DNA from: Chondrosia reniformis
Taxonomy: Eukaryota; Porifera; Demospongiae; Chondrillida; Chondrillidae
Length of the DNA stretch: 64,000 nt
Assembly: GCA_947172415.1 (NCBI GenBank)
Contig: OX359194.1
Span: forward strand, 1,240,001-1,304,000
Direction: 5' to 3'
Shown: in pieces, positions 3,401 through 6,361 of the stretch
How positions within the stretch are numbered: position 1 is the first letter of the stretch
How the letters are laid out: every line of letters starts with the position of its first letter
Notes under the pieces: generated by a model
What the model saw: only the letters and a program-made list of their open reading frames with translations
Told to the model about the DNA's origin: nothing
The model's database searches: none
Position numbers and translations under genes: made by a program

Positions 3401-6361
3401 AATTCTTGGTATGCATGTTTTGATAATTTAAAAGAGGATTTATGGAGCAAGGATTACAAGAAGTGCATGTGTCTGGATATATACAATTTGACTACATACG
3501 AATATACATGTAGTAGTTATACCGCAATCAAGTGTGATGCATAAGTGATATCTGCCCAAGACCAAAGGTTGAGGGCGGATATCACTTAGCTTGGTATAAG
3601 TAATTATCACTATGATTTGAATCAATTGTAAAGGTGATGATAAGGTATTGTAAGGTGATGATAAGTAAGCATGAGTAGAAAAAGGGAATTAATTGCAATG
3701 AGCCGTGCAAAGGCTAGGATGATAAGCAAAAATATTCACTGGAAAATATTATGCCAAACCAGCCAAGAGACCGAAGTCTAATCTTGGCTGGGGGACCGAA
3801 GTCCTATTAAAAATGGCAACCAGTGATCACCTCCAGTCATCTGAGATAGAAAATATTTTTTCCAAAAAACCACAGACAGCCAATGAAGAACAGCGAAGAT
3901 GTAGGCTGCAGTCTAAGCGAGACTGAGCATTCACAATGAAAAAGGGAGTTAATTGCAATGAGCTGTGCAAAGGCTAGGATGATAAGCAAAAATCATTGAA
4001 GTGTACCACACTGATGAGCCCAAATGAGGGCGAAACAGCTGTCTGTGGTTCTTTGGTGAAAATGTTTTCCATCTCGGATGACTGGGAGGCAATCACTGGT
4101 TGCCATTTTTAATAGGACTTCAGTCCCCAGCCAAGATTAGACTTCGGTCACTTGGCTGGTTTGGCATACTATTTTCCAGTGAATATTTTTGCTTATCAAA
4201 CATGAGTAGGCCTACTGGTGATATAACATTTATCATGTGAAATATAAGGTTTATAACACCCCAGATATCACCCGGTTGCCCTGGTAACGTGATATATATG
4301 TATATATAGTTCTTCCTCAAGTCCAAGATGTCACTGTTACAAAAGGTGTATCAGATGGATCTCCAAGTTTGACAGTTTCATGGACTGCAGTATCTGGATC
4401 TGAAATAACCTACACTGTGAGATATTCAACAAGTAGTGGTACTGAAACAGAACCACCAGCTGGAGCATCGACAGTGTCAGGAATCACTGGTACATCAACT
4501 ACACTGAGTGAACTTACACAAGGTACAGTGTACTACATTTGGGTAGCAGCTGTTTCATCAGGTGGACAAGGACCTTATAGTACAAGAGTGTCAGAGACTA
4601 CATTTGAAGGTAGCTGCGATCTGCAGGATATATATTTACATAATATGTTCAGTTAAAATTAATCTTAATACGTACATTATGCTTCAAAAATAGATACGTG
4701 TGTATTATAAAATCTATTTTTCTATTTTAGTATTTATATACTTAATTTAGTCCTGTGTACTCTCAATAGCCTCATGATATCTCCTCCATTTGGATAATGT
4801 ATGTAGTTCCAAATAAGGTATCATTGACTGCCAATCAAGTAACTAGGAAAGTCACTTCAAACAAACCATCACTGAGAGTAACTTGGAATGCTCCATCAAG
4901 TGATCGTACCATCACAAATTATAAGATACAGTACAGGAGAGGAACTAGTGGTAGTTGGATGGAGAGGACCTCAAATGGTAACACAACAATGGTTACTATA
5001 GAAAGTCTCCAACTTGGGACAAAGTATCAAGTGAGAGTGACAGCTGTGTCTGATTTAGGAGATGGAGCATGGAGTAATATTGTCAGCAATACAACATTTA
5101 ATGGTATATATATATACAACTAAATAAACATCCGTAAACATACTTTCAAATCTTTTTTATGTGAAGTGATCATAAAAAAACTATTTGTATTATAAGAATA
5201 TATTTGTATAATTTTTGTCTGTACGTAGTTCCAAATATGGTATCATTGACTACCAATCAAGTAACTAGGACAGTCACTTCAAACAATCCATCACTTCAAG
5301 TAACTTGGAGTGCTCCATCAAGTGATCGTACCATCACAAGTTATAAGATACAGTACAGGAGTGGAACTAGTGGTAATTGGATGGAGAGGACCTCAAATGG
5401 TAACACAACAATGGTTACTATAGAGAGTCTCCAACTTGGGACAAAGTATCAAGTACAAGTGAGAGCTGTGTCTGATTTAGGAGATGGAGCATGGAGTAAT
5501 ACTGTTAGCAGGACAACTTTTAATGGTATAGCTACGTATATGACTACGTATATAAAAACATGAACATACGTATAACAAATTTGAAGTGACCATGAAAAAC
5601 CATTGTTATTTAATATTTTTGTCTCTACGTAGTTCCAAATAAGGTAGCCTTGACTACCAATCAAGTAACTAGGACAGTCACTTCAAACAAACCATCACTG
5701 GGTGTAACTTGGAGTGCTCCATCAAGTAATCGTCCCATCACTAGTTATAAGATAGGGTACAGGAGTGGAACTAGTGGTAGTTGGATGGAGAGGACCTCAA
5801 ATGGTAACGCAACAATGGTTACTATAGAAAGTCTCCAACTTGGGACAAAGTATCAAGTGAGAGTGACAGCTGTGTCTGATTTAGGAGATGGAGCATGGAG
5901 TAATATTGTCAGCAATACAACATTTAATGGTATATATATATACAACTAAAATAAACATCCGTAAACATACTTTCAAATCTTTTTTATGTGGAGTGATCAT
6001 AAAAAAACTATTTGTATTATAAGAATATATTTGTATAATTTTTGTCTGTACGTAGTTCCAAATATGGTATCATTGACTACCAATCAAGTAACTAGGACAG
6101 TCACTTCAAACAAACCATCACTTCAAGTAACTTGGAGTGCTCCATTAAGTGATCATACCATCACTAGTTATAAGATAGGGTACAGGAGAGGAACTAGTGG
6201 TAATTGGATGAAGAGGACCTCAAATGGTAACACAACAATGGTTGCTATAGAGAATCTCCAACTTGGGACAATGTATCAAGTGAGAGTGAGAGCTGTGTCT
6301 GATTTAGGAGATGGAACATGGAGTGATATTGTCAGCAAAACAGCATTTAATGGTATATATA

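Follow-up and report, generated by a model that had tools for sequence, protein, structure and literature searches.

The 64,000-nucleotide stretch of the demosponge Chondrosia reniformis analysed here (the window; positions 1,240,001 to 1,304,000 of contig OX359194.1, assembly GCA_947172415.1) contains a type I hammerhead ribozyme motif at positions 4005-4049, within an intron of a predicted receptor tyrosine phosphatase gene. In our view, the motif probably serves as the processing ribozyme of an animal retrozyme that is non-autonomous and inserts in the manner of Penelope-like elements, the window holding an older, intronic copy. The evidence that carries this reading is a fixed pairing of one short and one tailed RNA 3' end in head-to-head insertions, seen both in the retrozymes and in Penelope-like elements of the same genome.

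Hammerhead motif and retrozyme families

The Rfam model RF00163 (type I hammerhead) matches 4005-4049 (+) over its full length (model positions 1-45 of 45) with a score of 34.6 bits, by a small margin above the gathering score of 34, and is the sole ribozyme family returned for the window at gathering scores. The match has an E-value of 6.9e-5 for the 64 kb and of 2.7e-6 for a 2.5-kb stretch. An earlier note on this DNA had called an intact hammerhead here and had proposed a covariance search as a check; the full-length match and its score bear out the call. Read from the letters, stem I (ACCACA/UGUGGU) has six pairs and is followed by CUGAUGA, and stem II (GCCC/GGGC) has four pairs and is followed by GAA, ACAGCUGU and the C at 4043, with stem lengths as given in that note. 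Folding adds an outer stem I of eight pairs, three of them G-U, past a small internal loop.

Stem III can be drawn in two ways. The earlier note had it loopless, as Rfam draws it, with ACAGCUGU forming four pairs between two molecules, and had added that known hammerheads with such a stem act mainly as dimers. The same letters also give a hairpin in which two pairs, A-U and C-G, close a tetraloop of AGCU, and therefore activity as a monomer appears possible, as does activity as a dimer. The loopless stem thus stands as one drawing of two, and the letters do not call for mainly dimeric action. A stem III of two pairs with a tetraloop is described as similar to invertebrate hammerheads, and a coral retrozyme self-cleaves efficiently as a single motif; an axolotl motif with two stem III pairs still worked better as a dimer (PMC7229834). 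Here and below, statements taken from cited papers refer to the parts of their text that were available.

Two retrozyme families, A and B, were recognised. Between them, three of the 12 stem pairs of the hammerhead differ on both sides, and 97.8% of the cells are paired, in an alignment of 15 distinct sequences that we picked from the fetched loci. The swaps are A-U/G-C at the end of stem I, C-G/U-A inside stem I and C-G/U-A in stem II, and the covariation score was reached in none of 500 shuffles. A search of the whole genome (15 contigs, 117,379,552 bases) with a 33-letter core pattern gave 188 exact matches, and none with the reversed pattern; among the matches listed are two arrays of four cores spaced 359-362 nucleotides (nt). 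A chance match is rejected on the RF00163 score, the covariation and the 188 cores, and a type I hammerhead at 4005-4049 is confirmed at the level of sequence.

Unit lengths were taken from copies with successive hammerheads. From cleavage site to cleavage site, the unit of family A measures 363 nt (locus L057) or 364 nt (L047) and that of family B 354 nt (L022). By blastn, the similarity between the families lies mainly in the ~50 nt that surround the hammerhead, with a weak match in a short hairpin stretch. The GC fraction is 0.452 in both units, and the longest ATG open reading frames (ORFs) are 52 and 40 amino acids (aa). Because of its size, GC content, tandem copies, hammerhead type and target duplications, the element is, by these sequence features, an animal retrozyme without long terminal repeats (non-LTR) as defined in PMC7229834. 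The retrozymes described there have a canonical type I hammerhead, a unit of 170-400 nt, GC below 50%, tandem copies, no long ORF and target duplications over 4 base pairs (bp); the sponge units are like them, being within that size range and non-coding, with GC below 50% and target duplications over 4 bp.

Compared with the majority base of the family, copies of family A differ at 0.7% of positions inside the 45-nt hammerhead and at 4.0% outside, and copies of family B at 2.4% in the hammerhead and 4.1% elsewhere. These figures are biased and are not used as support, because the locus searches were hammerhead-seeded (best 40 of 906 and best 73 of 11921 candidates). A third core variant (loop CTAAAGA), seen among the matches listed at G000:C1:1914656, C1:5148733, C2:2666690 and others, points to the existence of at least one additional retrozyme family.

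Paired short and tailed ends of the insertions

Unit coordinates were assigned to 40 insertions of family A and 26 of family B, taken from larger sets as the loci with the best scores. Overlapping duplicates of family B (L023, L029, L031, L032 and L038) were left out, and L037 was also omitted from the tests of arms and independence. In 46 of the 66 classified insertions (29 of 40 in A, 17 of 26 in B), the copies are arranged head-to-head, such that both outer ends are RNA 3' ends. These ends cluster at two sites, a short one (S) and a tailed one (T), located at unit 155 and 196-203 in family A (~45 nt apart) and at unit ~140 and 196 in family B (~56 nt apart). Insertions with both ends at these sites combine one S with one T in 25 of 25 cases in family A and 11 of 12 in family B, and none of these 37 is S/S. 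Held-out pairs of family A gave S plus T in four of four (L109, L110, C5:6536779/6536925 and C4:8660916/8661071). Under independent choice of ends, 40 of 41 S plus T has a p of 4e-11, the events being partly non-independent. The 36 S/T insertions represent ~34 events, because L064 consists of two copies with one repeated junction, and because L036 and L037, whose target duplications mirror each other, appear to be a single event.

Target duplications of 9-14 bp flank 31 of the 36 S/T insertions; duplications of 9 bp or more were found in 2.1% of re-dealt flank pairs. Twin priming is known for L1, and duplications of this length fit long interspersed nuclear elements (LINEs) too. The retrozyme might therefore have been moved by another reverse transcriptase (RT) of this kind, through twin priming on two independent RNAs with the ends chosen by chance. 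However, under L1-type twin priming one of the ends falls within the RNA, in contrast to the present insertions, in which the two outer ends share a single pair of sites, and independent priming predicts S/S and T/T as often as S/T, which was seen in 36 of 37 plus the four held-out pairs. We regard movement by a LINE as unlikely.

The inner junction, where antisense changes to sense, falls at 35 distinct positions in the 36 S/T insertions, which argues against the copying of a fixed foldback element. A foldback or MITE-like (miniature inverted-repeat) DNA transposon with an incidental hammerhead, its arms being terminal repeats moved by a transposase, would account for the inverted arms and the target duplications, and two non-identical, always-paired ends could be the left and right termini that a transposase recognises. 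A cut-and-paste element would nevertheless keep its inside, the arm lengths vary, some beyond two units, and both single-orientation and head-to-tail copies occur. The foldback transposon is largely refuted by the variable inner junctions, and we give it hardly any credence.

Three arms are longer than two units (750 nt in L047, 746 nt in L057 and 804 nt in L028); therefore, the template was circular or multimeric. Divergence between arms is 2.5% within an insertion versus 6.1% between insertions in family A, and 3.4% versus 7.1% in family B. Successive passes of one arm differ by 2.25%, near the within-insertion value of family A. Tested per insertion, the arms of family A are more alike within the insertion in 24 of 26 cases (p 1e-5). 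These values suggest that one RNA, or RNAs from one source locus, may have served both target strands.

Penelope-like elements and their probable link to the retrozymes

GIY-YIG matches occur at 38 places (the best 150 of 382 candidates were scored), and one ORF at L090 contains RVT_1 and GIY-YIG together, which is the Penelope arrangement. Penelope-like copies end at ...CCAAAGAT (S) or 37 nt beyond at ...TTCTATTA (T). Eight head-to-head copies were seen, and all seven that could be classified by eye are S plus T (L003, L047, L088, L092, L103, L104 and L106); L087, with one unclassifiable end, was not counted. L003 is an old copy in which the short end lies 8 nt early, and L103 has an 11-bp target duplication (by eye). 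The retrozymes thus display the insertion pattern of Penelope-like elements, with two adjacent 3' sites and one tailed inverted end. A Penelope enzyme is known to start at two adjacent RNA sites and to extend both target strands (PMC11167929), and Penelope-like elements optionally carry a 31-bp tail on one inverted repeat (PMC3846280).

Further features are shared. Sequence like CTAGTTGTATGT, with at most one mismatch, occurs at or within ~50 nt of 11 of the 36 S/T retrozyme insertions, versus none of 2000 random places in the window, and Penelope-like copies are flanked by the same repeats. In families A and B and in the Penelope-like elements alike, S and T are located downstream of the hammerhead. 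The hammerhead letter pattern is present in 10 of 20 GIY-YIG loci, and Rfam found no hammerhead at five Penelope loci, so that the label for these elements rests on the letter pattern and the literature. The tails of families A and B each fold into one hairpin (z of -2.44 and -4.84, respectively). The retrozyme is not itself a Penelope member, since its units hold no ORF over 52 aa and are without RT and GIY-YIG; it would be at most a passenger. In the 10 kb round two other hammerheads (L077 and L078), no RT or GIY-YIG ORF was seen by eye among ORFs of >=140 aa, with no domain search made.

Two observations concern the Penelope-like copies themselves. At L106, GIY-YIG frames lie in both opposed arms, 331-1281 (-) and 1265-2203 (+), of a long palindrome. 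Copies L090, L094, L104 and L106 sit in long arrays of TACTAGTTGTATG-like repeats, which are possibly a preferred home shared with the retrozymes.

From the paired ends we infer that these retrozymes are inserted by Penelope machinery, probably with a single RNA circle on which both strands are primed. A number of points weigh against this reading. Twenty of the 66 insertions have a single orientation only, one family B insertion is T/T (L011), and nine of the 46 head-to-head insertions have one end off both sites (L049, L050, L065 and L069; L009, L018, L025, L027 and L028). The S and T sites were set after viewing the data, with a tolerance of 10 nt, and the held-out pairs number only four. 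In family B, the per-insertion test of the arms is not significant (8 of 11, p 0.23), and the similarity of arms would equally fit two sister RNAs of one locus. No sequence similarity was found between retrozyme ends and Penelope ends, and the hairpin of the Penelope tail does not surpass shuffled sequences (z -0.30). The start sites of the anole enzyme are the same for both strands, and hammerhead cleavage is unneeded for insertion by this enzyme in vitro (PMC11167929). When 3991-4066 is folded alone, stem I, outer stem I and stem II form, and the nearest-neighbour fold, in a model that leaves out the non-canonical contacts of the hammerhead core, places a CUG/CAG pairing of the core 6.4 kcal/mol ahead of the hammerhead core. 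The steps from the signature to the enzyme, and from similar arms to one circle, are interpretive.

Proposed insertion mechanism

Insertion by Penelope machinery could proceed as follows. Multimeric transcripts would be self-cut by the hammerhead, and the monomer would be closed into a circle by a host ligase, as known in other animal retrozymes (PMC7229834). A dimer of a Penelope-like protein would cut both target strands, and each target 3' end would prime complementary DNA (cDNA) on the same RNA circle, one cDNA starting at the upstream site S and the other at T, ~45-56 nt downstream. Each RT would then travel along the circle over a distance that varies, and both cDNAs would be joined in the middle, giving a head-to-head insertion with a variable inner junction.

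A broader proposal, on which we find ourselves evenly divided, is that animal retrozymes travel with Penelope-like elements as circular-RNA passengers and that a dimeric Penelope ribonucleoprotein copies one circle twice at once, with the S and T sites primed by opposite strands. If this is true, the obligatory short-plus-tailed head-to-head insertion would follow from the double copying of one circle, and the same rule in Penelope elements would make double copying their general integration mechanism.

Window copy and host gene

The window copy (locus L001; window position is L001 + 2399, the left arm being L001 1280-1481) occupies 3679-4200, with the T end on the left and the S end on the right (Table 1). 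Its target duplication is 9 bp, and the extended flanks (3667-3678 and 4198-4209) are identical at 11 of 12 positions. The second antisense piece reflects a template jump of ~113 nt. The copy is 91-93% identical to the unit and therefore older than copies at 98-99%; it is best described as an older retrozyme copy that became fixed in the intron. The long inverted arms mentioned in the earlier note are present, with complementarity of 97% over 74 nt, 93% over 44 nt and 88% over 48 nt. Its suggestion that they could bring active copies together in one RNA is not supported: the left arm is antisense, contains no second sense hammerhead in the unit alignment of the copy, and is predicted to pair with the cleavage site.

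Table 1. Features of the window copy and its host intron (window positions)
Feature	Position	Strand	Basis
Host intron between two fn3 exons (inferred)	2740-4309	+	GT at 2740, AG at 4308, frames, fn3 domains
Left target-site duplication, CATGAGTAG	3670-3678		Flank comparison
Left arm, antisense cDNA, unit 196->1 then 363->358, from tailed (T) end	3679-3880	-	91% to unit
Antisense of cleavage site and stem I 3' strand; predicted partner of 4038-4050 in pre-mRNA	3868-3880	-	Folding
11-nt filler without unit match, between antisense pieces	3881-3891		Unit alignment
Second antisense piece, unit 245->144	3892-3991	-	92% to unit
Right arm, sense, unit 312->363 then 1->155, to short (S) end	3992-4198	+	93% to unit
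Outer stem I, 5' strand (partner 4051-4058)	3994-4001	+	Folding
Type I hammerhead ribozyme motif	4005-4049	+	RF00163, 34.6 bits
Expected cleavage site, after C at 4043	4043-4044	+	Predicted from Rfam alignment position
Outer stem I, 3' strand	4051-4058	+	Folding
Right target-site duplication, CATGAGTAG	4201-4209		Flank comparison

A domain search of the exons placed Ig domains at 1122-1460, fn3 domains at 2325-2771, 4288-4653, 4770-5120 and 9789-10277, and Y_phosphatase at 13665-14030 and 15814-16065, with a weak match at 12426-12641, all on the strand of the hammerhead. The intron is placed between two fn3 exons because the Ig, fn3 and Y_phosphatase exons share this strand and because of the GT at 2740 and AG at 4308. 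Judged from these domains, the host gene is an Ig/fn3 receptor tyrosine phosphatase with the hammerhead on its sense strand, in agreement with the location on the transcribed strand of a receptor-phosphatase intron given in the earlier note. Beside an fn3 exon, a long trinucleotide run at 6276-6590 of the window gives a poly-asparagine/poly-leucine frame.

In the predicted fold of RNA 3667-4210, the segment 4038-4050, which covers the cleavage site as well as the stem I 3' strand, pairs with 3868-3880; stem II forms (probability 0.998-1.0), stems I and III have a probability of 0.0, and forcing the hammerhead costs 21.6 kcal/mol. A longer folded stretch (3200-4308) gives identical partners for the cleavage site. 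In the family A unit folded as a circle, stems I and II remain formed. With its cleavage site predicted to be paired with the antisense left arm, the window copy is unlikely to cut the intron and has probably lost ribozyme function in its pre-mRNA.

These predictions bear on a further alternative, a functional intronic hammerhead that cuts and regulates the phosphatase pre-mRNA. Its location on the sense strand and its intact core letters, despite 91-93% identity to the unit, would fit such a role, as would the low divergence of the family A hammerhead (0.7% versus 4.0% outside), a comparison biased by the hammerhead-seeded search. The predicted pairing of the cleavage site and the cost of forcing the hammerhead speak against it, however, and the motif is one of 188 dispersed cores. 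On the dispersed cores and the predicted fold, a conserved intronic regulator is rejected as very unlikely. The earlier note had left open whether the motif cuts the intron or is the processing signal of a small retroelement; the latter fits, and the former is made unlikely by the predicted folding. As far as prediction goes, the ribozyme would serve the life cycle of the element rather than the host gene.

Other repeats in the window

A hammerhead look-alike of 34 letters lies at ~3316-3349 (-), in a dispersed repeat that measures a few hundred bases (roughly 3188-3425). It has CUGAUGA, GAAAC and GUC, and its stem II is closed by a mismatch. Its pattern has 878 exact genome-wide matches (425 + 453) and the reversed control none; Rfam returned no ribozyme family at ~3316-3349 (-). 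The repeat is also present in L026, L046, L047, L079, L081, L095 and L096, and a lysine-rich frame is open across the look-alike in the window. In the left flanks of L046 and L047, retrozymes are inserted right at the end of this 878-copy repeat, near TTTTTACAGAATA.

Fragments of eukaryotic small-subunit (SSU, model positions 46-434) and large-subunit (LSU, 2389-3399) rRNA, separated by short GGTGTCC-type repeats, occur at 18253-19484 (-) and are probably pseudogene pieces.

Comparison with known systems and significance

In contrast to the animal non-LTR retrozymes of PMC7229834, the sponge copies are mostly head-to-head, with a short and a tailed 3' end at two fixed, adjacent positions. In its main text, that paper makes no mention of inverted, head-to-head or twin copies, or of sponges. 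It lists LINEs or Penelope-like elements, 'among others', as movers of animal retrozymes, and names the latter as a strong candidate without end evidence of the present kind. Tailed Penelope-like elements (PMC11167929, PMC3846280) resemble the retrozymes described here in their inverted 3' repeats, one of them tailed, priming of both strands, target duplications of ~8-12 bp, AT-rich targets and a hammerhead upstream of the start sites. They differ in encoding RT and GIY-YIG and in having minimal hammerheads, whereas the retrozyme is non-coding with a full hammerhead, and their tails measure 31-40 nt versus ~45 and 56 nt in the retrozymes.

The satellite hammerheads of newt and axolotl (PMC7229834) are also of type I, with a palindromic tetraloop in a weak stem III; unlike them, stem III here has two pairs, and their arrays are head-to-tail. 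Plant LTR retrozymes (PMC4918200) share the hammerhead, the idea of a circular RNA and the non-autonomous character, but have a type III hammerhead, LTRs and 4-bp target duplications (PMC7229834). No published description of head-to-head or tailed retrozymes was found in literature listings or in the main text of PMC7229834, and the listings gave no earlier description of retrozymes with a Penelope-type insertion pattern.

For the window, these results describe one old intronic copy that is probably unable to cut the host transcript. For animal retrozymes, they bear on the enzyme that moves them: the paired short and tailed ends are a sequence signature of Penelope start sites, and this signature is present in two retrozyme families, which have little in common apart from the hammerhead, as well as in the Penelope elements that reside in this genome. 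The question of the mover can thereby be tested directly, in vitro and in any genome that carries retrozymes. The pattern also suggests a route by which a circular RNA may enter the DNA of an animal genome, with both target strands primed on one RNA.
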